Source of the DNA: a virus
Reading direction: 5' to 3' (one strand)
IMG/VR virus record: IMGVR_UViG_3300036790_000425
Span: 62,001-126,000 of that record
Length of the DNA: 64,000 bases
Shown: positions 10,438-61,301 of the stretch, one piece after another
How positions within the stretch are numbered: position 1 is the first letter of the stretch
How the letters are laid out: every line of letters starts with the position of its first letter
Notes under the pieces: generated by a model
Seen by the model: the letters and a program-made list of their open reading frames with translations, nothing else
The model's database searches: none
What the model was told of the DNA's origin: nothing
Program-made: the position numbers and the translations under genes

Positions 10438-12951
10438 TTATCCGGGCGCCTCGGTGTTCACCTCCCCGAAGGTCGTGCGGACCGCGAGCGTGGGGAAGCC
10501 GTTCCAGCCGCCGCCGCGGTAGGGCTCGTGGCCCTTTTTCTTCAGCCGGGTGCTCAGGCCGCGCTGCGCGGTCGGGGTGTGCCCGTTCTGCTTGCACCAG
10601 GCCACGTAGACCGCGTAGATCTCATGCGCGGCCCGGCCGATGGCGCCGCGCTGCGGGTCATCATCCTTGATCACCAGGCAGTCGTCGATGAACTGGCCGA
10701 CAGTGTCCTCCTCCTCCTGGTACCGGCGCAGGGCATCGAGCACCGGCTGCGGCGGGTTCAGCCCGTCGCGCTGCCAGGCCAGGGCGCCCTCGACGATCCA
10801 GGCCAGGATGCCGTCCGCCTCGTCGCGGATCAGGGTGTCCTGGAGGTAGCCGTCCCGCTGGTCCTCGGGGATGATCACCGGCCAGGTGATCAGCTGGATC
10901 CGCCGCCAGGTGGCGGAGTCGTCGCTCATCCGGGGCAGGTGATTGGTGGTCAGCAGGATCTTGCCGACCGGCCGGAAGTCGAAGTACTCCCCGCGCATGA
11001 ACCGGGCCGAGATCGTGTCCCCGCCGGTCAGCTGCTTCAGCCGCTGCTCGTCCAGGGACTTGCCGGCCTTGGTCTCGCTGGCCTGGAGGAACCGCTTGCC
11101 GGCCATCCGGGCCACGTCGTTGGGGATCCGGCCGTCCACCGAGCTGGCCATCAGGGTCTCGACCGGCATGGTCTGGGCATAGGTGCCCAGGACGTGCGCC
11201 AGGACGCTGATGAACACCGACTTGCCGTTGGCCCCGGTGCCGTGCAGCAGGAACGCTGCCTGCTCCGAGGTCTGGCCGGTGGCGCAGTAGCCCGCCACCC
11301 GCTGGAGGTAGGCCCGCATCGCCGGGTCCGGCTGGACCTGCTTCAGGAACTCCTGCCAGCGGGTAGCCGGCTCGCCCGGGTAGTAGCTCGCAGCGGCCTG
11401 GAGCGTCATCCGCTGCTCCGGGTCGTGCGGGCTCAGCTCGCCCGTGCACAGGTCCACCACGCCGTTCCGGGCGTTGATCACCAGCGGGTTGCCGTCGAAC
11501 GTGGACTGGCTCATCCGCATCAGCGGCAGCCCGGTAGCCAGGTCGGCTGCCACGGATACCGCCTTGCGGGTGTGCTGCTTGGCCACCCAGTCCGTGAACC
11601 GGTCGTAGGGCGAGGGCATCATCTCCCCGTCCAGGGCGACCTCGGGCTCGGTCTCATACGACCTGCCCTCGGTGTCCAGCAGGTTGCGGATCATGATCTG
11701 CGCGGCCCACAGCCCTTCCTGCTTGGTGGCCGGCATCCAGACGCCGCCGAGATAGGTCATCCAGGTGCCCAGCTCCGGGCACCAGCGCATCCGGTCGCCC
11801 CAGTGATCGGCCATCCGGTCGGCCAGGCCGAACTCGGTGCGCGGGCGGCAGGGCCAGCTGGCCTGCATGATGCCCCACTGGACATTCCGCGGGCGGTTCA
11901 TGCCCGCCCGCCAGCCCGAGATGAACGTGCCCCGGATCTCGCCCTCGGTCAGCCCGGCCGCCATCGCCGCGTCCCGCAGGCCGGCGAAGGCCGCGTCCTC
12001 GGACAGGATCCCGGCGCCGCCGAGCTGGCCCAGGCTGAAGGCGCAGTTGTTCAGCGTCTCATTGCGCGAGCCGGACTCGGCCGAGCGCATCGTCAGGCAC
12101 TCGCTCTCCAGGGCGCGCTCGGCATAAGCCCGGGTCTGCCCGTTGGGAGCGACCGGCGGCTCCGCCGACAGAGTCTCGCCGGCCTGCTCCTTGTCGTGGT
12201 TGCGCAGCAGGGCCAGCAGCCAGTCCGGGGCGGGAGCCGGGGTGATGTCGTGCGCCGGGTTCAGGTCGTAGGGGCCGCCCTCGTTAACCGAGGGCGGCAC
12301 CAGGACGAAGCCGTTCTCGCCGCGGACGTCCAGGCCGGTGCCGAGCACCCGCTTGGCTGAGTTGCGCACCTCGAAGCCGGGGTGCTCGAACACGTAGTGC
12401 GTGCCCCCGCGGCCGGTCTGGTGCACCCGGGTGACGGGCATCGGCCCGTGCCGGCGCTCGTAGGCACCCAGGGTCTGGCTGCCGCCGGCGTAGGTGTCCT
12501 CGTCCAGGACGAAAATGCCCGAGCGCCGCCCGGTGACCACCCCGACATTGGAGAACGGGTACCACTGGGTAGCCGGGATCTGCGGCTCCGCGCGCCACCA
12601 GTGGCCGACCACGGCGGGATCGTCGGATGAAACGCCGGGCCAGTCGTCGTGCATCGGGTGCTTGCCCGGGGAAGGGCACTCCGCGCCGCGGTGGCAGGAG
12701 CAGATCCTGTCCTTGTCCAGCCAGCGGACGGGGATCACCTTCATCCCCAGGGCGGCGTACTTCAGTGCTGCGGTCAGCAGCTCCGCCCGGCGCGCGTCAT
12801 CATCAGGCCCCAGAATGGACGGAGCCCGTTGCGCCTGGTCAGCGCCCCCGGTAATCTCAGGAACTGAACGACTCTCGGCAGCGTCGTCCGCATCCAGGCC
12901 CCCCGCATTGTCCTCAGCAGCATTTGCGGGGGGTCCGCCGATATCAGTCAC
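10438..12951 (-). CDS. primase-polymerase / D5-like superfamily 3 helicase
   Basis: This is an 837-residue bifunctional replication protein. Residues about 45-250 form an archaeo-eukaryotic-primase domain (prim-pol): the DxD-type FVLDEDTYAG, and HQTGRGGTHYVF with the catalytic His. After a D5-N-like linker comes an SF3 helicase with Walker A LHGTGANGKSVF (about 575), a KSLDEQRLKQLTGGD segment and sensor-type KILLTTNHLPRM (about 675). A conserved WRRIQLITWPV follows. Such proteins prime and unwind at the origin of phages and integrative plasmids. The start is GTG with GGGGG upstream; the gene ends beside the GTGCAC array. Confidence 0.92.
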   Translation of the reverse strand: MTDIGGPPANAAEDNAGGLDADDAAESRSVPEITGGADQAQRAPSILGPDDDARRAELLTAALKYAALGMKVIPVRWLDKDRICSCHRGAECPSPGKHPMHDDWPGVSSDDPAVVGHWWRAEPQIPATQWYPFSNVGVVTGRRSGIFVLDEDTYAGGSQTLGAYERRHGPMPVTRVHQTGRGGTHYVFEHPGFEVRNSAKRVLGTGLDVRGENGFVLVPPSVNEGGPYDLNPAHDITPAPAPDWLLALLRNHDKEQAGETLSAEPPVAPNGQTRAYAERALESECLTMRSAESGSRNETLNNCAFSLGQLGGAGILSEDAAFAGLRDAAMAAGLTEGEIRGTFISGWRAGMNRPRNVQWGIMQASWPCRPRTEFGLADRMADHWGDRMRWCPELGTWMTYLGGVWMPATKQEGLWAAQIMIRNLLDTEGRSYETEPEVALDGEMMPSPYDRFTDWVAKQHTRKAVSVAADLATGLPLMRMSQSTFDGNPLVINARNGVVDLCTGELSPHDPEQRMTLQAAASYYPGEPATRWQEFLKQVQPDPAMRAYLQRVAGYCATGQTSEQAAFLLHGTGANGKSVFISVLAHVLGTYAQTMPVETLMASSVDGRIPNDVARMAGKRFLQASETKAGKSLDEQRLKQLTGGDTISARFMRGEYFDFRPVGKILLTTNHLPRMSDDSATWRRIQLITWPVIIPEDQRDGYLQDTLIRDEADGILAWIVEGALAWQRDGLNPPQPVLDALRRYQEEEDTVGQFIDDCLVIKDDDPQRGAIGRAAHEIYAVYVAWCKQNGHTPTAQRGLSTRLKKKGHEPYRGGGWNGFPTLAVRTTFGEVNTEAPG

Positions 12952-17931: not shown

Positions 17932-18870
17932 TCAGGCCGCGGCGTCCTCCGCGATCCCGGCACTGGCCGGGGCGATGCCGGCGGCCTGCGCGGGCATCCC
18001 GTCCACGATCTGGCGGGCGGCCTTCTGGATGCGCGAGCCGGACTCCCTGATCATCTTGCGGGCCTGCCCGGGGTCGCCGCGCATCCAGCTCAGCACGTAG
18101 CCGAAGCTGTAGTCCGAGGTGTCGGCGCCGAGCGCGGCAGCCGCGATGTAGGCAACCGACTCGGCCTCCAGCTCCTTCAGCCCGGCGGGAGCCTCGCTGC
18201 TCTCGTGCAGCAGGACGTGCCCGGCCTCGTGCAGCAGGGTCTTCAGCTGGCCCATCGTGGACCGGCCATCGGTGGCGATCCGGACCCGGCGCAGGCTCCA
18301 GGTCGTGTCGCCGTTCTTGGAACCGGACTCGAAGCGGTCCACGAACTCCACGTCATAGCCGGCCGAGTTAATGAAGGCGACCGCGCGGGCGATCATGCCC
18401 TCGGGCGCCTCGCCCGTCAGCTTGCGGACCGGCCCGGGCAGCGGCTCGCCCTCGGTCTGGCTGATGTCGAATACCGGCACCGGGACGAAGAACGGGATGC
18501 GCCGGGTCTCGCCGGTCTCCTCGTCCTCGACCTTGCGGGAGGACGGGGCCCAGATCCAGATCGCGCGCTGGCGCTGGCCGGTCTCGTCCGGGCCCTTGAC
18601 GTGGCGGCCCAGGAGCAGCCAGCCCGACTTCGGCTTGCCGGTGACCTTGTCGGTCGTGCCGAAGCTGGTGACCCGGGTGGCGTGCGGGCACTGGGCCATG
18701 ATCAGCATCGAGTTGCCGAAGCTGTAGGTGTGGAAGCGGGCCTGCACGTCCAGGTAGGCCTGCCAGGTCGCGGAGGTAGCCAGCGCGTCGATGCCGGCGG
18801 CCAGCTTCTCGGTGATCTCCGCGCGGTGGTCGGTCTTGGCGCGGGCGGGCTTGCGGGTCGTCTTGGTCAT
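17932..18870 (-). CDS. ArdC-type antirestriction protein
   Basis: This is a 312-residue protein with the two-domain ArdC plan. An N-terminal ssDNA-binding domain contains YLDVQARFHTYSFGNSMLIM (about 39-58). A C-terminal zinc metalloprotease-like domain has LLHEAGHVLLHE (HExxH, about 215) and the downstream ligand region ELEAESVAYIAA. ArdC proteins come from conjugative plasmids and protect entering DNA from restriction. The ATG is 6 nt after TAAGCT, so the message appears leaderless and could be made immediately on entry. It sits next to the TraB/Spd-like genes, supporting a plasmid-derived entry module. A hairpin follows the stop. Confidence 0.82.
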   Translation of the reverse strand: MTKTTRKPARAKTDHRAEITEKLAAGIDALATSATWQAYLDVQARFHTYSFGNSMLIMAQCPHATRVTSFGTTDKVTGKPKSGWLLLGRHVKGPDETGQRQRAIWIWAPSSRKVEDEETGETRRIPFFVPVPVFDISQTEGEPLPGPVRKLTGEAPEGMIARAVAFINSAGYDVEFVDRFESGSKNGDTTWSLRRVRIATDGRSTMGQLKTLLHEAGHVLLHESSEAPAGLKELEAESVAYIAAAALGADTSDYSFGYVLSWMRGDPGQARKMIRESGSRIQKAARQIVDGMPAQAAGIAPASAGIAEDAAA

Positions 18871-18876
18871 AAGGAC

Positions 18877-18905
18877 AGCTTAGCAAGGAAAGCTGTATTG
18901 AGCAA
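18877..18905 (-). promoter_or_regulatory. promoter with shared element; leaderless start
   Basis: TTGCTC-N17-TAAGCT on the minus strand around ATACAGCTTTCCTTGCTAA (18898 to 18880). The -10 ends 6 nt before the ArdC-like ATG (18870). Confidence 0.8.
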
Positions 18906-18913
18906 GTACCTGA

Positions 18914-18948
18914 GAGAGGCCCCCGGCGGCGGCTGCCGGGGGCCTCTC
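18914..18948 (-). terminator. hairpin after the Arg-rich membrane protein gene
   Basis: A perfect 14-bp stem (GAGAGGCCCCCGGC with complement), 7-nt loop, lies between the stop at 18959 and the ArdC promoter. Confidence 0.75.
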
Positions 18949-18958
18949 CGCGGGACCT

Positions 18959-20866
18959 TTACTGATCGCTGACCGTGTCCCACAGATCCTCGCTGGGCCG
19001 CGGGTTCTCGATCCGTTCGATCTCCTCGGCATGCTCGGAGTTGAACATGGCCCTGATCTCCTCGGCCTGCTGCACGGCCGAGGTGAACAGCCCGGTGAAC
19101 TGCTCCATCGCCTGCTTGGTCCCCGGCCCGATCGGCAGGCCGTCGGCGCTGTCCTTCAGCCCGCTGAAGGCCGCGGCGACCTCAGTCATTGACTCCGGCA
19201 TGCCGTCGAAGATGTCCCGCATCTCGCGGGTCGTGGTCGGCTGGTGGGTGGCAACGGCCGAGCTGAACTGCTCGGCCGCCGAGTGGATGACTCCTGCCAT
19301 GCCTGCTCCTCCTCCTGAGAATGCTGCGGCCGTGCCCGGCCGGCGGCGGCCGGCGAGCGGGATGCTGCCCGGGACCGTGCCCGCGGGCTCCGGCATGCGG
19401 CCGTCCTCCGGGTCCGCCCGGGTAGTCACGGGGCGCTCGGGCGGCCTGGTCCAGTACGTAGGCGGCGCCTGCCTCGCGCGGCTCCGCTTCCTCCAGAATA
19501 GCAAGAAACCTGCCAGGCCCGCGCCTGTCGCGGCGGCGGTGCCCGTCCGGCCGCCCCAGGCGCGCATCCGGGCCCTCAGCGGGGTCCGGCCGCTCCACCG
19601 GCCGGCGATGCGCCGGGCCAGCGGCGGGACGCCGCCCGGGTAGCGCTTCGCCAGCCTCGCCACGCGCCGCGCCCGGAGCCTGCTCGTCTGGGCCCGGGAC
19701 TTCCGCCGGGTCCAGGCATAGCTGTCCCGGGTCTTGATGCACGTGATGGTGCGCCACTTCCGGGCATGCCGCCACCTGCCCCCGGCTGCTGCCCTCCGGG
19801 CGTTATTAGCGGTCTTGCGGCCCTGGGCCGCCGCTACCCGGGCGTCCTTGCGCCGCTGGCGCGAGGCGTGCCTGTAGTCCCTGCGGCCCTGCCGCCCGCC
19901 GCCCTTTCCTGCCTTCCGGTTGTGCCGTGCCAGGCGGGCCGCCTGAGCGCGCTGGCGGCCGGCGGCGGTGGGGTGGCGCAGGAACCGGCCCGCGGCACGG
20001 GTGCGCCGGAGCCTCGGCGCGCCGCCGAGCGCGCCTGGCGCGGCGGCGGCAGCGGCACGGCGCGCGGTCCGGGCGGCGCGGCCCTGCGCCTTCTGGCTGC
20101 GCCGGTACTGGCGCCGCTGGCCCGGGTGGCGCATGCCCGGCCGCCCGCCGGGGAAGCCTGGCGCAGAGGTGCCGCGCCGGCCGAAGACACTGCGCCTGCC
20201 GGTCTTCGCGCCAGCGCCCGTGCCACTGCGCCGGCGGCCGGCCTGGCCCGTGGCGCGCCGTCCCGTGCCGGCTGTCCCGGCACGGCTGCGCCGGCCTCCG
20301 CCGAGCGGGTGGCGCATGGTGCGCTTGCCGCGGGCGCCGGCTCCGCCGGGGACGGAGTGACGGCCGCGCCGGGCGCCTGCCCCGGCGGCGGCGCTGCCCT
20401 TGCGGCCGGAGAACGGGTTGAGCCGGGCCAGGCCCTTCCTGCCCGCGGCGGCGGTCCCGGCGCCCTTCCTGCCGCCGGCCGCGGCGCTCAGGCGGCCCTT
20501 ACGGCCGCCCAGTCCCGCTCCGCCCCGGCCGCTGCCGAGACGGCCGCGCATGGCGCCGCCCAGCCGGCCGCGCTGCCCGCGGGTGATGGTCCGGGTCGTC
20601 CGGGTACGCCGCATCCCCGGCTTGCGCCGGTTGGCGTTGAAGTGCTGCCGGATATGCGGCAGGTAGCGGAGCACCAGGAAGCCGGCGAACAGGGCGGCAG
20701 CCGCGACGATGATGATGATCGCCGTGCCGCCGCCTGCCTTGTGAACCAGGGCGGCGACCCCGGCGACGATGAGCAGCAGGACGGTCCCGCCGCGGCGCCA
20801 CATGTGCGACCGCGGGCGGGATTCCGCCTGCTGGGCGGGGACTGTTTCCTCAGCCAACTGGGACAC
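18959..20866 (-). CDS. Arg/Gly-rich membrane protein of a plasmid-transfer-like module
   Basis: This is a 635-residue protein of odd composition. Two hydrophobic helices near the N-terminus (about 28-45 and 47-66) are followed by some 370 residues very rich in Arg, Gly, Ala and Lys (repeated GRKG, GRR and ARR patterns), a third hydrophobic stretch (GAGLAGFLLFW, about 455), a Pro-rich linker, and an ordered acidic C-terminal domain of about 115 residues starting at HSAAEQFSSAV and ending in PRPSEDLWDTVSDQ. That C-terminal pattern resembles proteins encoded beside FtsK/TraB genes in actinobacterial plasmids. The GTG start overlaps the DUF2637 gene by 17 nt. The basic part may bind DNA or the negatively charged wall. 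This role is inference. Confidence 0.7.
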   Translation of the reverse strand: MSQLAEETVPAQQAESRPRSHMWRRGGTVLLLIVAGVAALVHKAGGGTAIIIIVAAAALFAGFLVLRYLPHIRQHFNANRRKPGMRRTRTTRTITRGQRGRLGGAMRGRLGSGRGGAGLGGRKGRLSAAAGGRKGAGTAAAGRKGLARLNPFSGRKGSAAAGAGARRGRHSVPGGAGARGKRTMRHPLGGGRRSRAGTAGTGRRATGQAGRRRSGTGAGAKTGRRSVFGRRGTSAPGFPGGRPGMRHPGQRRQYRRSQKAQGRAARTARRAAAAAAPGALGGAPRLRRTRAAGRFLRHPTAAGRQRAQAARLARHNRKAGKGGGRQGRRDYRHASRQRRKDARVAAAQGRKTANNARRAAAGGRWRHARKWRTITCIKTRDSYAWTRRKSRAQTSRLRARRVARLAKRYPGGVPPLARRIAGRWSGRTPLRARMRAWGGRTGTAAATGAGLAGFLLFWRKRSRARQAPPTYWTRPPERPVTTRADPEDGRMPEPAGTVPGSIPLAGRRRPGTAAAFSGGGAGMAGVIHSAAEQFSSAVATHQPTTTREMRDIFDGMPESMTEVAAAFSGLKDSADGLPIGPGTKQAMEQFTGLFTSAVQQAEEIRAMFNSEHAEEIERIENPRPSEDLWDTVSDQ

Positions 20867-21983
20867 CTCCGGGGATGAAGGGCTGAGCAGGGGCGATCAG
20901 GTCGCCCTGCCCGTTCGCGTGCCGGGCCGGCGGCAGCGGCCGGAGGCGCTGGGCTCGCTCGGCTCGCTCGGCGTTCAGCAGCCTCGTGCCCCAGCGCCGC
21001 TGATCGGACTCCTCGGGCGGGGCGATCATGCGGGCGACCTGGCGGTAGGTCGTGGCCGCCAGGTCAGTGTCGGACAGGCCGGCCAGCTGATCGGCCACCT
21101 CGCGCCGGCGCTCGGCGCTGACCCCGGCGGGGACCCGGGCATCGGCGCTCAGCTCAGCCGCCGCGCTGTGCACGGCGGGCACCAGGCTCAGGCGGCCTGG
21201 CGCGGCGTCCTCGTGCGCCATCGCTGGCACGTCCTCGTGCGCCATCGCTGGCGCGGCTGGCGCGGCTGGCGCGGCTGGCGCGCTCTCGATCGCTGGCACG
21301 TCCTCGCGCGCCACCACCTCCGGCACGGATGGCGCGGGCAGTGATGGCGCGGGGATGGCGCGGCGCGGCGCGTCCTCCTGGCGCGGGGGCTTGATCACGG
21401 CCGGGCCCTCGGTCATGTAGTCGCTGATGGCACGCTGCGGGCTGGTCTCGCCGTACCAGGTGGCGCGGCGCATCACCCGGAACGAGCCGACCGGGTGCCA
21501 GGCCACGCGGGTGGCTCCGAGCCGGACAGCGTGCTTCTCGATCAGGCCCTGGGCCATCAGCTTGTCGCGGCTGACCCGGCGCGAGTGCACCGACCACAGC
21601 CACGGCGAGATCGAGGACATCAGGCCGAAGATCAGCGCGGCCACGGTCGGCCGCCAGTGACTCGCGAAGTGGCTGTAGTTCATGGCGCCGACGATCAGGG
21701 CCAGCGCGTAGGACGACAGCCGCAGCCGGGCGGTCGAGTCGTTCTTCAGCTGCGCCTCGTGCGCCTGGTAGGCCAGCACGACGGCAATCAGCTCCAGGAT
21801 GACCGCCACCAGGATGACCGACCAGCGCGGCACCGGCAGGTGATCCCGCAGGTAGGCGTACTGACCGATGAAGGCCGCGATGTTCACGCCCACGATCGGG
21901 ACAGCGGTCAGGACAGCGCTCACACCATGCCGGAAGCGGTCACTCCTGATCACTTCCAGGACCTCGGCAGACCCGTCACGCAT
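20850..21983 (-). CDS. DUF2637/Spd-like membrane protein
   Basis: This is a 377-residue protein. Four hydrophobic helices in the first 135 residues (GVSAVLTAVPIVGVNIAAFI; SVILVAVILELIAVVLAYQA; LSSYALALIVGAMNYSHFA; TVAALIFGLMSSISPWLWSV), with SRRVSRDKL after the last, match the DUF2637 family found beside transfer genes of actinobacterial plasmids (Spd, plasmid spreading). The tail contains a tandem-repeat segment (EDVPAM and APAAP units; DNA 21207-21280). ATG 21983 is preferred (AGGAGG 8 nt upstream); ATG 21989 is also possible. It is transcribed from 22020-22048, divergent from the TraB/FtsK gene. Confidence 0.75.
   Translation of the reverse strand: MRDGSAEVLEVIRSDRFRHGVSAVLTAVPIVGVNIAAFIGQYAYLRDHLPVPRWSVILVAVILELIAVVLAYQAHEAQLKNDSTARLRLSSYALALIVGAMNYSHFASHWRPTVAALIFGLMSSISPWLWSVHSRRVSRDKLMAQGLIEKHAVRLGATRVAWHPVGSFRVMRRATWYGETSPQRAISDYMTEGPAVIKPPRQEDAPRRAIPAPSLPAPSVPEVVAREDVPAIESAPAAPAAPAAPAMAHEDVPAMAHEDAAPGRLSLVPAVHSAAAELSADARVPAGVSAERRREVADQLAGLSDTDLAATTYRQVARMIAPPEESDQRRWGTRLLNAERAERAQRLRPLPPARHANGQGDLIAPAQPFIPGGVPVG
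21207..21280. repeat. tandem repeats inside the Spd-like gene
   Basis: Two copies of a 24-bp unit (core TCCTCGTGCGCCATCGCTGG) are followed by about four copies of GGCGCGGCT. They encode repeated EDVPAMAH and APA peptides in a probable flexible linker. Confidence 0.75.
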
Positions 21984-22019
21984 CGTCATCTCCTCCTCGC
22001 AGTTGTCCTCAGCACATCC

Positions 22020-22048
22020 ACATTATCAAGAAAACCTGTAATCGTCGA
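22020..22048 (-). promoter_or_regulatory. promoter with shared element for the Spd-like operon
   Basis: TCGACG-N17-TAATGT on the minus strand with a TTACAGGTTTTCTTGATAA copy (22041 to 22023). A leader of about 30 nt with GAGGAGG precedes the start. Confidence 0.7.
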
Positions 22049-22049
22049 G

Positions 22050-22302
22050 GATCACACCTGCGGAACCCCGGTTTCCGGGGGTCAGGGACCCGCTTCGATC
22101 ACAGTCACAGTTCCTGACCTGCCCGTCCTCGAAACTGTGATCGAGTAGTGATCCGGCAGACCGTGACTGTGACTTAGCGGGGTTCCTTGCCAGGGTCAGG
22201 GGCCCCGGATCACAGCGATCTTTGTTTAGACACGGACACGATCGGTGATCACTAGCAATGAAACTGATATTTTCGACGTTATCCATAACAATGACTGATC
22301 AC
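22050..22302. repeat. repeat-rich divergent gap, candidate clt/oriT or origin
   Basis: The 330-bp gap (21990-22319) carries GATCACAG at 22097 and 22208 and inverted at 22135, further GATCAC/GTGATC at 22050, 22148, 22245 (as GTGATCAC) and 22297, a 9-bp inverted pair GGAACCCCG (22062) / CGGGGTTCC (22178), and GGGTCAGGG twice (near 22079 and 22194). An 86-codon frame inside it (22026-22286) is not convincing. Adjacent TraB-like genes make a transfer locus with repeated 8-mers plausible; an origin or partition site is the alternative. Confidence 0.55.
22252..22270 (+). promoter_or_regulatory. degenerate copy of the shared element before the TraB/FtsK gene
   Basis: CTAGCAATGAAACTGATAT is a weak match to the plus-strand form TTAGCAAGAAAACCTGTAT, about 50 bp upstream of the GTG start at 22320. 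GATATT at its end could be the -10. Confidence 0.45.
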
Positions 22303-22319
22303 TACCGGAGGAGCCGCAG

Positions 22320-24281
22320 GTGAGTGCCCCGACGACCAAGACCTGGGAGCACGTCGCGGAGTGGACAGCGCTGCTCAGCGCTGCCGTGCTCACCGCCGTG
22401 GCTTACCTGCCCGGCATGGGCGCGCCCGCGTGGTGCGTCCCGGTGCTGTCCGCGGTGCTCGGCCTGATCGCGGCGGGCGTGGCCGCTGCCGTGGCCGGCG
22501 GGAGGTTCGCCGCCTGGTGCGCCGCCTACGGCGCATGGTGCGCCGCCTGGAGCTACTGGGCCGGCACGCGCGGCCTGTGGCACCCTGTTGTCGTGATCGC
22601 CTGGATCCTGGGGGCCGTCGCCTTCGTCGCGGCCGGCGCGCTCCTCCTGGCACACCGCCGGCCGGCGCAGCTGGCCATCGAGGCCGCGCCGGACCCCGAG
22701 GAGGCCAGCCGCCTGGAGGTCCTGGCGCAGTGGGACCACCTGTTCGCCTCGGTGGACTGCGAGGGCGTCCGGACGGTCGAGGTCATCGACGACAAGGCCA
22801 CGCCGGGCCGGGTGATCCGGGCCGAGCTGCCGCGCAAGGGGCACCTGACCATCCGCAGCCTGGAGACCCAGGCGCACCGGATGGAGGTCGCGCTGCGGCT
22901 GCGGGAGAACAGCATCACCTTCGCCACCCTGGCGAACGCCGCGGACATCGAGCTGCGGCTGCGGGAGCGGGACCTCATGACCAAGGCCGTCCCGCTGACC
23001 CCGGCGCACTACGCCACCACCATCAACAAGCCGTTCGCCGTCGGCGTGGGCGAGGACGGCAAGATCAAGTCGCTGACCCTGCGCCAGGTCCACATGATGC
23101 TGGTCGGCACGACCGGCGCGGGCAAGTCGAACCTGATCAACGTCCTGACCGGGCAGATGGGCCGGATGGTGGACACCGTCATCTGGTGCATCGACATGAA
23201 GGGCGGCCGGGTCGCCCGGCCGTGGCTCCTGCCGTGGATGAACAACGAGACCGATCAGCCGGTCTTCGACTGGGTGGCTACCAGCCGGAAGGAGGCCGCG
23301 CTGATGATGGACTGCTTCGTGATGGCCATCACCAGCCGGATGAACTCCGGCCGGGGCGGGTCGAAGATCACCCCGAAGGCCAATATCCCGCAGATCATCC
23401 TGCTGGTGGACGAGGCGGCCGACCTGATCGGCCAGGACAAGGGCCCGACCCTGGCCGAGGCCGAGCGGCTCGGCGTGCTGACCAACCGGCAGTTCGCCAA
23501 GCGCTTCGGAGAGATCACCCAGAAGGGGCGGTCCGAGGCTGCCTCCGCAGTGATCGCCACCCAGCGGGGCACCAACAGCATGTCCGGTGACGGCGACATC
23601 AAGGGTCAGTGCAAGACCCGGATCCTGCTGGGCACGGTCAACGAGAATGAGGCCCGCTACGTGCTGAACGACGACCCGCAGGCCTGGCGGCTGGCCACGA
23701 TGGCCTCCGCCATCCCGGGTGCCGGGGTCATCGGCGTCGGCCGGGACACCTCGCTGCTGGTCAAGTTCTTCCTGCTGGACCACCCGGAGGTGCCGGGCAC
23801 CGAAACCGGCGAGACGCTGTGTGATGACGGCTGCGTGCCGGAGTGCGCGGTCCGGATGACCGCGATCGAGACCGGCCGGGTCCGCCCGGCGCTGGACCAG
23901 GAGACCGCCGCCAGCATGGGCGAGACCTACGCCGACCGGTGGGCCCGGGCCCGGGACGCTGGCGTCATCACCCGGGTGCCTGCCCGGCGCCAGGTGGCCG
24001 CGGTCAGCACCGCCGGGTTCGAGCAGATCATGTCCGACTCGGGGATGACCGACCCGGACCAGGACGTGGACCCGCGGCGGCTGCGGATGCGCGAGCTGCT
24101 GGCCTCCCGGGGGCCGGCAGGCGGCACACCCAACTTCCTGTGGACCAAGATGGCGGAGGAGGGCATCACCGTGGCCCGGGAGACCCTGTCCCGGTGGCTG
24201 CGCGCCGACGCCGACCGCGGCCTGTGCCACTCGGCTGATGAGCATGGCCGCTGGCGGATCGGCCAGAAGCCGGCCGCCTAG
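22320..24281 (+). CDS. TraB/FtsK-like DNA translocase
   Basis: This is a 653-residue membrane-anchored motor. The N-terminal 115 residues hold about four hydrophobic helices. The FtsK/SpoIIIE ATPase follows with Walker A VGTTGAGKS (about 262-270) and Walker B ILLVDEAADL (about 360-369). The last 75 residues (RRLRMRELLASRG, WTKMAEEGITVARETLSRWL) look like a winged-helix DNA-binding domain. This is the architecture of actinobacterial TraB, which moves double-stranded plasmid DNA between mycelial cells by recognising 8-bp repeats; chromosome-type FtsK is the alternative. GTG start with GGAGGAG 6 nt upstream. It is divergent from the Spd-like and Arg-rich membrane genes, and convergent (4-nt overlap) with the DivIVA-like gene. 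Confidence 0.85.
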   Translation: MSAPTTKTWEHVAEWTALLSAAVLTAVAYLPGMGAPAWCVPVLSAVLGLIAAGVAAAVAGGRFAAWCAAYGAWCAAWSYWAGTRGLWHPVVVIAWILGAVAFVAAGALLLAHRRPAQLAIEAAPDPEEASRLEVLAQWDHLFASVDCEGVRTVEVIDDKATPGRVIRAELPRKGHLTIRSLETQAHRMEVALRLRENSITFATLANAADIELRLRERDLMTKAVPLTPAHYATTINKPFAVGVGEDGKIKSLTLRQVHMMLVGTTGAGKSNLINVLTGQMGRMVDTVIWCIDMKGGRVARPWLLPWMNNETDQPVFDWVATSRKEAALMMDCFVMAITSRMNSGRGGSKITPKANIPQIILLVDEAADLIGQDKGPTLAEAERLGVLTNRQFAKRFGEITQKGRSEAASAVIATQRGTNSMSGDGDIKGQCKTRILLGTVNENEARYVLNDDPQAWRLATMASAIPGAGVIGVGRDTSLLVKFFLLDHPEVPGTETGETLCDDGCVPECAVRMTAIETGRVRPALDQETAASMGETYADRWARARDAGVITRVPARRQVAAVSTAGFEQIMSDSGMTDPDQDVDPRRLRMRELLASRGPAGGTPNFLWTKMAEEGITVARETLSRWLRADADRGLCHSADEHGRWRIGQKPAA

Positions 24282-25496: not shown

Positions 25497-25889
25497 TCAG
25501 GCCGCCAGCGTGAGCGATCCCGAGGCGATGGTGAAGGTGTCGCCCGAGTTCGTGGTCTTGGCCGCGGTGAGCGCGCCCCACCAGGTGCGGATAGGCGAGC
25601 CGGCCGAGTCCCACAGCTCTACGCCGTTGATCGTGGTCGCCGGCATGTTGGTCACCGTGACCGCGACATTGGAGGCCTTCGAGCCGGCCGAGGCCGCAGC
25701 GAAGGTGACCGTCGGGGCGCCCGTGCCGGAGGTGTACCCGCCGCCGGTCGCCAGCTCGGTGCCGTTGCTGGTATTGCTGCCGTTGGCCGTCATCAGCCGG
25801 CAGGTGATGGGCGTGGTCGGTGAGGTAAGCGTGCCGCCGACGCTGGCGTCCAGCAGCTTGTTCGAGAACGTCTGGTCGAGGCTAGACAC
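25497..25889 (-). CDS. phage tail-fibre-type structural protein
   Basis: This is a 130-residue Ser/Thr/Gly-rich beta protein. CRLMTANGSNTSNGTELATG, then TVTNMPATTINGVELWDSAG and WWGALTAAKTTNSGDT follow a pattern I associate with a small structural-protein family of tailed phages (NG..N..GTE..., WDS.G.P..WWG.L). The GTG start overlaps the upstream zinc-type gene by 8 nt. It sits far from the main tail cluster, near the lysozyme. Confidence 0.6.
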   Translation of the reverse strand: MSSLDQTFSNKLLDASVGGTLTSPTTPITCRLMTANGSNTSNGTELATGGGYTSGTGAPTVTFAAASAGSKASNVAVTVTNMPATTINGVELWDSAGSPIRTWWGALTAAKTTNSGDTFTIASGSLTLAA

Positions 25890-50033: not shown

Positions 50034-50698
50034 TACGCATGCGGGGAGAAGTTGCCGGGCGGCGAACCCTTCACGGGATGACCGCCGCCGGTCTTCTTCT
50101 TCGGCAGCGTGCCGGTGGCCTGGCCGTTATAAGCCGTGAAGTGCCAGCCGACGCCGGCCGAGATCCGGGCCATGTACGCGCTGATCGCGTCATAGGCCTT
50201 CTGGCTGAACACGCCGTTGGAGCTGCCCGCCTTGACCAGCGCGGTGCTGGCGTCCTGGACGATGAACAGGGTCAGCGTGTAGCGCTGGTTGAGCTTGCCC
50301 GGGGTCATGATCACCGAGTTGCCGCCGTCGGGGTCGGTGAGCGCCTTGACATAGACCTGGAAGCGCCAGTTCTTCGGCGGGTAGCTGAAGATCGCAGGCC
50401 GGTGCATGACGGCCTGGGCAGTGGCATCCCGGCTCTGGAACTCCATGATCCGGGTGACCACGTCCAGGAACTGGCTAGCCTGCTGCCAGCTCTCGCCGTG
50501 CTTCGCGTCCTGGTGGTCCTGGCCGAGGCTGCCGGTTACGGTCAGGTCATCGAGATAGGCGCCGATGACCTGGATCACCCGGCCGCCGATGGTCTCGACG
50601 ACGTTGGTGATCACCTGCCAGTTCCAGCTGATGTTCTCGGGATCAAGCCGGAAGGCCACCGCGGGGCCGCCGGGGTAACCGAGAGTTGCCGTGCCCAA
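50033..50698 (-). CDS. tail structural protein
   Basis: This is a 221-residue protein with a TTG start (50698) supported by GAGGAGG 4 nt upstream and by the loss of plausible sequence further upstream. Beta/alpha body: NISWNWQVITNVVETIGGRV and VIGAYLDDLTVTGSLGQDHQ, then FQVYVKALTDPDGGN; the end is Lys/Gly/Pro-rich. Position between tape measure and hub fits a tail-tip or tube-initiator protein. No family recognised. A GCCCCGGAAG element lies upstream at 50719-50729. Confidence 0.65.
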   Translation of the reverse strand: MGTATLGYPGGPAVAFRLDPENISWNWQVITNVVETIGGRVIQVIGAYLDDLTVTGSLGQDHQDAKHGESWQQASQFLDVVTRIMEFQSRDATAQAVMHRPAIFSYPPKNWRFQVYVKALTDPDGGNSVIMTPGKLNQRYTLTLFIVQDASTALVKAGSSNGVFSQKAYDAISAYMARISAGVGWHFTAYNGQATGTLPKKKTGGGHPVKGSPPGNFSPHA

Positions 50699-50718
50699 CC
50701 TGCCTCCTCGCCTCACGC

Positions 50719-50729
50719 CTTCCGGGGCC
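50719..50729 (-). repeat. GCCCCGGAAG late intergenic element
   Basis: Minus-strand GGCCCCGGAAG lies 20 nt upstream of the TTG start at 50698, just beyond the bidirectional promoter element. Confidence 0.6.
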
Positions 50730-50744
50730 GGGACAGGTAGCACG

Positions 50745-50767
50745 TTAGTAAGAAACCCTGTTATGAT
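50745..50767 (+). promoter_or_regulatory. plus-strand promoter with reversed shared element; leaderless start
   Basis: TTAGTAAGAAACCCTGTTA (50745-50763) is a copy of the element. TATGAT at 50762-50767 is the -10 and ends 6 nt before ATG 50774. On the minus strand TAACGT could serve the 50698 gene. Confidence 0.7.
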
Positions 50768-50773
50768 GAGGTC

Positions 50774-51187
50774 ATGAGCAGACGAGGCACCCACCGCAGC
50801 GGTCACGAGAAGGACCTGAAGGCACTCGCCGGCGTCACCTCGTTCTGCCTGGGGGTGCCCCTGCTGATCTCCAGCGTCACCGAGCTGCTGCGGTACTCCC
50901 CCTACGAGGACCCGGGCGCCGGGACCGCCGGCCTGTGGCTGGGCATCGCCGCGGTGCTGGCCATCTGCATCCCGGTGCTCGCGCTGGTCATCCTGATCGT
51001 CCGGCTGGCCGCGGCGGACTACCTGGCCTGGAGGCGGTCGCTGTCTCCCGTGCAGCGGGCCCTGGTCGGCTGGGGCGAGTTCGCTGCCCTGCTGGGCGCG
51101 CACCTGCTCATCCGGCACCACCACCGCGAGACCAGCGCGCGGCTGACCGCCAGCGTCATGGGCGACACGCCCGAGGTGCCCTCTTGA
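50774..51187 (+). CDS. two-helix membrane protein, leaderless
   Basis: This is a 137-residue protein. After a basic N-terminus (MSRRGTHRSGHEKDLK) it has two hydrophobic helices (about 20-36, VTSFCLGVPLLISSVTEL, and 52-78, GLWLGIAAVLAICIPVLALV) and a basic soluble tail with RHHHRE. ATG 50774 is 6 nt after TATGAT. It is the first gene of a plus-strand pair inserted against the direction of the tail operon, and coupled to the SLOG gene by a TTGA overlap. Superinfection or defence functions fit such inserts, but nothing proves one. Confidence 0.7.
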   Translation: MSRRGTHRSGHEKDLKALAGVTSFCLGVPLLISSVTELLRYSPYEDPGAGTAGLWLGIAAVLAICIPVLALVILIVRLAAADYLAWRRSLSPVQRALVGWGEFAALLGAHLLIRHHHRETSARLTASVMGDTPEVPS

Positions 51188-51696
51188 CCAGCATGCGGGT
51201 CCTGGTCTTCGGCTCGCCCGGCTACGACGATGAGCTGTCGCTGCGGGCTGCGCTGGACGAGCTGTTCGACAAGGCGCCGATGAACGGGGACCTGGTCGTG
51301 CTGGCCGGGCGTGAGGGGTGCGAGGGACCTGAGGCGATCGCCAGGTCCTGGGCTCAGGAGATGATCGCGGACAAGATGCCGGTACTCCTGGAGGACCGCC
51401 CGGAGATCCCGGAGGCGACCTTCGCGGAGGGCTGCCTGGTGGCAATCCGGACCGGGGACCCGATGCTGGACCCGGCCTCCCGGCGCGAGCTGACCGAGCT
51501 GGCCCGGATCCTGATGGCCCGGGGCCTCCGGGTGCGGGTCGTGGTCCAGGGACACGCCCAGGGGCTGCCGGAGGACCTGGCCGGCGGACCGGGCGGGCGC
51601 GTCCTGGGTACCGTTACCCGGCGCAGCGGGATGAACCGCGGAAACGATGCCAGTCCCGGCCGTCCCGGCTCAAAGCCACCGCATCACGGGCGCTAG
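51184..51696 (+). CDS. SLOG/YspA-like (DUF2493-type) protein
   Basis: This is a 170-residue protein. MRVLVFGSPGYDDELSLRAA and GDLVVLAGREGCEGPEAIA match the SLOG/YspA Rossmann-type fold, in which the second motif is usually GGARGAD and binds a nucleotide-derived ligand. The TTG start overlaps the membrane-protein stop by 4 nt; ATG 51193 is an alternative. Its last 83 nt are antisense to the convergent gene at 51614. SLOG proteins bind or process nucleotides and appear in stress and defence contexts; together with a membrane partner this could be a small sensor-effector pair. Confidence 0.6.
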   Translation: MTSMRVLVFGSPGYDDELSLRAALDELFDKAPMNGDLVVLAGREGCEGPEAIARSWAQEMIADKMPVLLEDRPEIPEATFAEGCLVAIRTGDPMLDPASRRELTELARILMARGLRVRVVVQGHAQGLPEDLAGGPGGRVLGTVTRRSGMNRGNDASPGRPGSKPPHHGR

Positions 51697-59885: not shown

Positions 59886-61301
59886 TTGAGCCAGCGTTCC
59901 CGCGCGCCAGTGCACAGAGACCGCTCGGGCCCCGCTGCCTGGTGGCGGGCCCGCACGTCGGCCATCGACCTGTCTCTCCTGGAGCGCGTCCTAGGCGGCC
60001 TGCGGCGGATCCCGGAGGACCCGCCCCCGGCACAGTCCAACGGTCATGTCCCGCTGCCCCGGAGGCAGCTGTCCAGGGCAGCGCCGCGAGGGGAGCACGC
60101 CCGGCTGCCCGTGAGCACCCCGGAGCCGCCGCTCCCGCCGGAGCCCGGGCCCGCGGACCCGGCTATCGTCGCGGTGCGCGCCTCGTTCGACGCCCTGGGC
60201 GATAACGAGGACAAGGCGACCAACTACTTCTACAGCTGCCTGTTCGTCGCCCACCCCGAGCTGCGGCAGATGTTCCCGCCCGCGATGGATGAGCAGCGGG
60301 ACCGGCTGTTCCGGGCCATCCGCAAGATCGTGGACACGATGAGCACGCCCGCCGAGCTGGCGGACTACCTGGCGCAGCTCGGCCGCGATCACCGCAAGTA
60401 CGGGGTCACCCCGCAGATGTACGGCGCCCTGGGCGAGGCATTCAACCAGGCGCTGCGCAGGTACGCCGGGGCAGTGTTCACCCCGGCCGCGGAGGAGGCC
60501 TGGACGCAGGCTTACCTGGCGGCCTCCTCGATCATGATCCGGGCAGCCGAGTCCGATCCGGGGCCGGCATCCGTGACCGGGTACGTGATCGAGCACAGCT
60601 ACCGGGGCAACGGGATCGCGACCATGACCGTGGCCCCGGCCGGGCCGCTGCCCTACCTGGCCGGCCAGCACGTCACGATTGAGCACCCGCGCTGGCCGCG
60701 GGTGTGGCGGCCGTACTCGATCGCCAACCGGCCGCGCGACGACGGGATGCTGACCTTCCACGTCAGGGCGGTGTCCGGCGGCTGGGTCAGCAGCTCCCTG
60801 GTGCACTACACCAGCCCCGGCATGCAGCTGACCCTCGGGCCGGCGCTCGGCGGCATGACCCTGGGCCGGGCCGCCAGCCGGGATCTGGTGTGCATCGCCG
60901 GCGGCACCGGGCTGAGCCCGGTGAAGGCCATCGTGGAGCAAGCCGTCCGGGACTCCCTGAGCCGCGGGGAGGCCCGCTCGGTGCACCTGTACTGCGGTGC
61001 CCGGCACCGCGAGGAGCTGTACGACCTGGAGGGGCTGTGGAAGATCTCCGACGCCTATCCGGGCCTGATCGTCACCCCTGTCACCTCCGACGACGTGCTG
61101 TTCGAGGGCATGCAGGGCAACGTCGGCCGGGTGGCAGCCCGGTACCTGCCGCACGGTGACTGCGAGGTCTACGTGGCCGGCCCGGAGAAGATGGTCCGGG
61201 AGACGATCATCCTGCTGGCTGCTGCGGGAGTGCCGCCGGACCGGGTGCACTACGATGACGCGCTGCTGGCCGGGCGCGAGCGCGTCGGCTCAGGTACCTG
61301 A
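59886..61301 (+). CDS. flavohaemoglobin-like NO dioxygenase
   Basis: This is a 471-residue protein. After a Pro/Arg-rich N-terminal extension of about 90 residues comes a globin domain (about 92-225). It includes FASxx-like RASFDALGDNEDKATNYFYS and the proximal-His segment RDHRKYGVTPQMYGALGEAF. The ferredoxin-reductase half has WRPYSIANRPRDDG (FAD), CIAGGTGLSPVKAIV and VYVAGPEKMV (NAD(P)H). Such enzymes convert nitric oxide to nitrate. TTG 59886 has AGAAGGG 7 nt upstream. It stands alone on the plus strand inside the tail cluster and its 3' end overlaps the convergent PPOX gene by 12 nt. A phage-borne copy is unusual; a redox enzyme of another kind is possible. Confidence 0.88.
   Translation: MSQRSRAPVHRDRSGPAAWWRARTSAIDLSLLERVLGGLRRIPEDPPPAQSNGHVPLPRRQLSRAAPRGEHARLPVSTPEPPLPPEPGPADPAIVAVRASFDALGDNEDKATNYFYSCLFVAHPELRQMFPPAMDEQRDRLFRAIRKIVDTMSTPAELADYLAQLGRDHRKYGVTPQMYGALGEAFNQALRRYAGAVFTPAAEEAWTQAYLAASSIMIRAAESDPGPASVTGYVIEHSYRGNGIATMTVAPAGPLPYLAGQHVTIEHPRWPRVWRPYSIANRPRDDGMLTFHVRAVSGGWVSSSLVHYTSPGMQLTLGPALGGMTLGRAASRDLVCIAGGTGLSPVKAIVEQAVRDSLSRGEARSVHLYCGARHREELYDLEGLWKISDAYPGLIVTPVTSDDVLFEGMQGNVGRVAARYLPHGDCEVYVAGPEKMVRETIILLAAAGVPPDRVHYDDALLAGRERVGSGT

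Follow-up and report, generated by a model that had tools for sequence, protein, structure and literature searches.

A candidate plasmid-type DNA-transfer cassette with a DivIVA-domain partner in a large contractile phage

IMG/VR virus record IMGVR_UViG_3300036790_000425 is 162,435 bp long, and we analyzed a stretch of 64,000 nucleotides of it (bases 62001–126000), which is called the window. An earlier reading of the window (the original prediction) had named four neighboring proteins, an ArdC-like protein, an Arg-rich membrane protein, a Spd/DUF2637 protein, and a TraB/FtsK-type ATPase (here the motor), and had suggested that the phage is a hybrid with a conjugative plasmid. All four proteins are present (Table 1), and next to them is a gene for a DivIVA-domain protein that had been missed. 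With a probability of about 0.57, the locus is a phage-borne actinobacterial plasmid DNA-transfer cassette, which would move unpackaged phage double-stranded DNA (dsDNA) between compartments in an otherwise lytic infection. What the analysis establishes directly is which genes are present, their synteny, their homology to cassettes of plasmids and phage-plasmids, their folds, and a repeat cluster. The homology of the cassette is well supported; its function we infer.

A portal search retrieved 44 related loci, and the 23 longer records among them were used for searches with the module genes. Sequence searches found the DUF2637 gene in five of the 23 (G002, G004, G011, G013, and G017). The motor and DivIVA genes were found in these five and in no other of the 23, with gene order and slot unchanged; the slot is bounded by the conserved genes g119/g120 and g130/g131. 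The motor is alone on the opposite strand in all five relatives. The Arg-rich protein is in the same position in all six viruses, that is, the window phage and these five; its body was missed by the gene caller in four of the six and was recovered by further search. These four genes are the conserved core. The synteny check across related phages that had been suggested with the original prediction showed the core order in all six viruses. Since the core is 36–62% identical and syntenic in related viruses, the module is more than a chance arrangement. A seventh virus (L125) has the motor, the DUF2637 protein, the basic protein, and the repeats at a contig end. In the collinear sisters G015 (complete) and G016, the core is absent and the slot is filled by unrelated genes.

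The motor matched FtsK/SpoIIIE-like proteins in PHROG (1.7e-28). Its Walker A motif is GTTGAGKS (residues 263–270), and the Walker motifs are conserved in all motor members. In the AlphaFold model (mean predicted local distance difference test score, pLDDT, 82), four N-terminal helices precede an FtsK-type motor, which is followed by a C-terminal winged helix (residues 585–647, about 24072–24260). By AlphaFold and Foldseek, this is the TraB-type architecture, in which an N-terminal membrane anchor, an FtsK motor, and a C-terminal winged helix are combined. The closest solved folds in Foldseek were TcpA, the conjugation coupling ATPase encoded by the Clostridium plasmid pCW3 (3.9e-15), and then FtsK (3e-14). 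TcpA works with an apparatus resembling a type IV secretion system, and no genes of this kind were recognized in the window phage. In a maximum-likelihood tree, which had several long branches and no actinobacterial chromosomal FtsK among its sequences, the motor was placed in a 21-member clade (support 97/82) of translocases from plasmids, phage-plasmids, and phages, and E. coli FtsK fell outside it. This clade includes pZL12.71, pFQ12, pSQ10, Hiyaa, and P1312, and it bears out the plasmid-type motor of the original prediction. The relatives of the motor in bacterial genomes were all actinobacterial and mostly from filamentous genera. A single-sequence pattern scan with the ATPase found nothing, and sister-virus profiles were needed. 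G004 (IMGVR 3300031718_000001) also encodes, at 50583–51314, a separate 243-residue protein with a second copy of the ATPase winged helix (40% identity over 55 residues), possibly a regulator that reads the same repeats.

The Arg-rich protein contains 18% Arg and 15% Gly and has a net charge of about +101, two predicted N-terminal transmembrane (TM) segments, and a long basic linker. Its last ~115 residues (about 18962–19306) are a conserved C-terminal domain (C-domain) with the signature H..(D/E)I.R..NPRP.E..W(D/N). A hidden Markov model (HMM) of the C-domain, built from the six related viruses only, matched in the first round (8.9e-27 to 3.9e-9) the gene directly upstream of an FtsK-like motor in plasmids, phage-plasmids, and phages. 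The matches were to the linear plasmid of Streptomyces NBC_01178 (8.9e-27), Streptomyces phage Hiyaa (3e-14), Thermobifida phage P1312 (8e-13), Nocardiopsis pSQ10 (9e-13), a 90-kb plasmid of S. anulatus (9e-12), Frankia pFQ12 (2e-11), the plasmid-phage pZL12 (pZL12.72, 2.6e-11), and an 86-kb plasmid of S. albidoflavus with a terminase (3e-11); two further linear plasmids also matched. Where homologs were measured, they proved basic and rich in Gly and Ala, and most have N-terminal TM segments. In the window, the basic protein is one gene away from the motor, across the divergent intergenic region. Judged by its C-domain, it is recognizable as a putative transfer component. In Hiyaa, the open reading frame (ORF) for the basic protein (L202:1186–3249, about nucleotides 67,218–69,281 of MK279841, plus strand) is unannotated because gp100 is called on the opposite strand over the same stretch; the motor of this phage is gp102. 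Several small extra ORFs in L127 (IMGVR 3300047160_013602, 10713–12356) match the C-domain, as if the domain had been multiplied.

The third core protein reached the Pfam gathering score of DUF2637 (PF10935) with 25.5 against 22.8 bits. AlphaFold predicts with confidence a bundle of four long helices (pLDDT >90 for most of their length), together with a flexible linker and a small helical domain at the C terminus; a fold search against the PDB gave no match with E ≤ 0.001. While tblastn with this protein against plasmids and phages gave nothing, sister-virus profiles matched gp98 of Hiyaa and large proteins encoded next to the motor gene of linear plasmids. Using hhalign, both Hiyaa gp98 and a Streptomyces linear-plasmid protein (L055) were matched at 98%, and no match was obtained to the NBC_01178 protein that is annotated as DUF2637. 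The motor clade, together with the basic and DUF2637 homologs beside plasmid motors, upholds the claimed homology of the module to plasmid transfer loci. For the core genes, we found neither a grouping with chromosomal FtsK or packaging ATPases nor a separate occurrence in strictly lytic phages with plasmid homologs lacking.

The fourth core protein has a coiled coil and matched the Pfam domain DivIVA (PF05103) with 31.4 bits (cut-off 28). The domain was matched by six of six orthologs at E ≤ 0.01, and the alignment of the DivIVA proteins contains the N-terminal motif GY..xQVD. The gene is convergent with the ATPase gene and overlaps its end. At the other plasmid and phage loci examined, the DivIVA partner was absent, except for weak coiled-coil matches in two linear-plasmid proteins. 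DivIVA proteins recruit chromosome-organizing factors, the motor domain also matches FtsK (E 3e-14), and FtsK/SpoIIIE-like proteins occur without the cassette in phages of unicellular hosts, such as Bacillus phages BM15 and CM1. Thus, the motor, its membrane partners, and the DivIVA protein might act only within the cell to organize, segregate, or position phage genomes or to clear the host nucleoid, with no cell-to-cell transfer. This is unlikely, because the closest relatives of the motor and its basic partner are on actinobacterial plasmids and phage-plasmids and not beside chromosomal FtsK, and the BM15 locus has no match to the C-domain of the basic protein.

Table 1. Features of the module and their positions in the window
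Feature	Position	Strand	Evidence	Remark
ArdC-like HExxH protein	17932–18870	-	PHROG, Pfam	Accessory neighbor
Arg/Gly-rich basic membrane protein, 635 aa	18959–20866	-	Composition, TM segments, C-domain HMM	
DUF2637 four-helix membrane protein	20850–21989	-	Pfam PF10935, AlphaFold	Candidate septal or pore partner
Intergenic region with TCACA/TGTGA cluster	21990–22319		Repeat counts	
Membrane-anchored FtsK/TraB-type dsDNA translocase, 653 aa	22320–24281	+	PHROG, AlphaFold, Foldseek, tree	
DivIVA-domain coiled-coil protein, 244 aa	24278–25012	-	Pfam DivIVA	Candidate pole or septum targeting factor

A cluster of short repeats, the only one of its kind in the genome, lies in the intergenic stretch upstream of the motor. 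There are seven TCACA/TGTGA in a 330-bp segment, versus 0.13 expected from the genome, and the next best segment has three. The repeat consensus is GRTCACAS. Clusters were also counted in the relatives (12 in G004, eight in G013, eight in G017, six in G002, and only three in G011), while G015, G016, and G023, which have no module, have no comparable TCACA cluster. When each intergenic region was simulated, the observed count was reached in 0–5 of 5000 runs, except for G011 (73 of 5000). In known systems, clt sites are repeats next to tra genes, such as the four copies of TGACACC to which TraA of pWTY27 binds; in pSVH1, TraB recognizes repeats of 8 bp via its winged helix (PMC3583192). Repeat clusters are found directly 3' of the motor in pSQ10, pFQ12, pCQ3, and P1312, and that of P1312 has the same GTCACA. 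Thus, going by its sequence and position, the TCACA cluster is a candidate for a clt-like motor-loading site or an operator.

Two other motifs were considered and rejected. The pSVH1 motif GACCCGGA was rejected as a recognition site, since its 58 copies are spread across the genome with no enrichment at the module; only G017 has two copies in the intergenic region. The core CTGACCTGCGGTAAC, shared by the phage cluster and the plasmid and P1312 clusters, was considered as a clt core, and equally good matches to it occur genome-wide, some of them within other non-coding repeat clusters. Two of the CTGACCTGCGGTAAC matches, at 101 and 162409, are one place, since they lie within the terminal overlap of the record. 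A different, phage-wide element (TATCAAGAAAACCTGTA / TTAGCAAGAAAACCTGTATC) is found at about window position 22027 and at nine other sites in the record (for example, 5419, 13474, 77695, 78184, and 148428). The element TTAGCAAGAAAACCTGTATC is usually 26–64 bp upstream of start codons, on either strand, and it is a candidate phage promoter or regulator site. The position of this phage-wide element upstream of the DUF2637 gene suggests that the module comes under the regulation of the phage itself. Further clusters outside coding sequence, of TGCACAA/AGTGCA, are at record positions 142498–142795, in G013 (80772, 109034, and 142160), and in G004 (85705). Some of them enclose CTGACCTG-type sequences, and they are probably separate regulatory or replication elements.

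In Streptomyces, TraB pumps dsDNA, and Spd proteins join TraB in vegetative septa, by which plasmids are spread within the mycelium; growing tips are a site of TraB assembly, and their polarisome is organized by DivIVA (PMC5133688). A transfer cassette in the window phage would have as its parts the four-helix membrane protein, the strongly basic anchored protein with the diagnostic C-domain, and the membrane-anchored FtsK/TraB-type dsDNA pump. The added DivIVA-domain protein may hold the pump at septa, at branch points, or at the poles of hyphae. Through its winged helix, the motor would be loaded onto the genome, and the TCACA cluster beside the motor gene is a plausible site for this. The complex would then drive unpackaged, replicating phage dsDNA through septal cross-walls or hyphal contacts into neighboring compartments during infection.

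Several results weigh against DNA transfer by such a cassette. The motor scored 36.9 bits against the NCBIfam model plasmid_TraB (NF041214), far below the cut-off of 800, and the control pCQ3 TraB scored 850.2. Therefore, we do not count the motor as an orthodox TraB member, and the original prediction is not supported on this point. The DUF2637 part of the Spd/DUF2637 label held, but homology to a characterized Spd protein was not detected, as hhalign gave a probability of 0.2% for pIJ101 SpdB. The comparison of the DUF2637 protein with pZL12.73 was also negative. Since the TCACA cluster is in a divergent promoter region and the genomes have other repeat clusters, an operator role is equally possible for it. 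Sister phages that lack the module are presumably viable, which makes the cassette dispensable across the group. Four parts of this picture we infer: that DNA is transferred, that the pump is targeted to poles or septa, that the repeats are used, and that the host is mycelial.

The locus can be compared with several known transfer systems. It resembles pZL12/phiZL12 in that the FtsK-like motor belongs to the same clade, and in pZL12 it is directly preceded by the basic protein with the same C-domain and has a multi-TM membrane protein next to it. The genes pZL12.71–.73 are presumably the three genes reported for pZL12. Because of pZL12, a conjugation locus in a phage genome is not new but precedented. 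However, pZL12 is a ~90-kb plasmid with phage genes, whereas the window belongs to a 162-kb contractile phage with its own replisome. The window phage also differs in the divergent orientation of the motor, the added DivIVA protein, a membrane protein that is not detectably related to pZL12.73, and the lack of detected partition or integration genes. The TraB-clt-Spd systems of pSVH1, pIJ101, and pCQ3 share with the window a membrane-anchored FtsK-type motor, a winged helix, and short repeats adjoining the motor gene; in the window, the repeats are of the TCACA type and 5' of the motor instead of GACCCGGA, and homology to SpdB is undetectable. Among cultured phages, Hiyaa, Keanu, Spocter, Galactica, and P1312 encode a motor of the same family. 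The basic protein with the C-domain is present in Hiyaa and P1312 as well, and gp98 of Hiyaa is a DUF2637 homolog. These Streptomyces and Thermobifida phages have smaller genomes (60–83 kb), no DivIVA-like match at the locus, and the cassette on one strand, and it is annotated merely as an FtsK translocase.

The claim that the genome is that of a contractile phage was confirmed. A tail sheath (7e-45) and a portal (3.2e-135) were identified, and a terminase-like protein of 681 residues was recognized by reading the sequence alone. The portal is 35–38% identical to those of cluster-C-like phages of Rhodococcus, Gordonia, and Mycobacterium (Finch, Pupper, Myrna, and Phabba). These myoviruses have genomes of similar size, and tblastn found no homolog of the motor in them. 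The window phage is a distantly cluster-C-like contractile phage from soil and apparently lytic. The record ends (1–127 and 162309–162435) are identical over 127 bp and consist largely of CCGCCT tandem repeats. Since identical ends are the usual sign of a closed circle, the genome is essentially complete and probably circular, though it is classed as linear. Two sister records also have identical termini: G004 (127 bp), which has the module, and G015 (123 bp), which does not.

The phage might instead be a true pZL12-like phage-plasmid, that is, an extrachromosomal prophage that is conjugative and makes virions. Homologous cassettes are indeed found on pZL12 and on plasmids of ~86–90 kb, one of which has a terminase and partition genes, and the pZL12-like plasmid pSLE1 has ParA/ParB (PMC4487206). 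We searched the window phage's record and five sister records for tyrosine integrase (PF00589), ParA (PF13614, AAA_31), and resolvase (PF00239) and found none (among the six, G000 and G004 are complete by their terminal overlap), and the search for ParB (PF02195) gave only one partial, sub-threshold ParB_N match, in G004. Moreover, the genome encodes a primase-polymerase/D5 helicase and a 5'-3' exonuclease as well as DnaE- and RecA-like proteins, the latter two recognized by reading. The nearest cultured relatives are the large cluster-C-like myoviruses, which are regarded as lytic. Taken together, a phage-plasmid of this kind is quite improbable. The hybrid proposed in the original prediction therefore stands in part: the homology to transfer cassettes and the precedent of pZL12 speak for it, but because maintenance genes were not found, a stable plasmid phase, and with it the full hybrid idea, is argued against. 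An established plasmid lifestyle found no backing in these searches.

The ArdC-like protein has a HEAGH metallopeptidase motif and matched anti-restriction proteins in PHROG (7.4e-6). Its match to Pfam ArdcN (3.6e-4, 21.2 bits) is just below the cut-off of 22.6. The gene is found in three of the six module-bearing viruses, with G002 and G004 the only relatives that have it, and it stands alone in the plaque-forming Gordonia phages Stormageddon and RedWattleHog. Therefore, it is a frequent neighbor and not a core gene, and the original prediction of ArdC as part of the system is not supported. Phages carry many genes for conflict between elements, and with an ArdC-like gene adjoining it in three genomes, the module might use plasmid-derived transfer proteins to jam the spread of conjugative plasmids or superinfection, and not to move phage DNA. 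This is very improbable, because the whole machine is kept, with an intact motor, the winged helix, the conserved basic partner, and adjacent repeats; a decoy would not require the Walker motifs, yet they are conserved in all members.

Some other genes of the phage are also worth recording. A flavohaemoprotein-like gene with globin, FAD-binding, and NAD-binding domains (window 60111–61301, plus strand) lies between virion genes on the opposite strand, which is unusual in a phage. A 130-residue protein (window 25497–25889, minus strand) is 72–91% identical across the sisters where it was found, while its neighbors are far less conserved. The record also has an RtcB RNA ligase gene (135890–137074) and a short protein that by eye resembles actinobacterial DUF397 (137628–137843), a hint of an actinomycete host.

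As far as we could establish, what is new is the occurrence of such a cassette in contractile, apparently lytic phages that form a family with genomes of ~160 kb, the DivIVA partner, and the signature domain that links the cassettes of plasmids, phage-plasmids, and plaque-forming phages. We suggest, tentatively, that a lytic contractile phage of mycelial actinobacteria could have two routes of spread, by virions between colonies and by septum-to-septum pumping of the genome within a colony via a DivIVA-docked plasmid-type translocator. The cassette might then be a general, hitherto unrecognized "infection-by-conjugation" module of plasmids, phage-plasmids, and plaque-forming Streptomyces phages. 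Cultured phages suited to testing this are available, Hiyaa on S. lividans and P1312 on Thermobifida. Genes now listed separately as "FtsK" or as hypothetical in actinobacterial plasmids, in phage-plasmids, and in cultured phages would be unified as one cassette with a signature domain. If the transfer reading is true, infection would run ahead of lysis through the multicellular host. Phages of multicellular bacteria would then move their genomes between compartments without virions, as plasmids do, and the view of mycelial infection would change.

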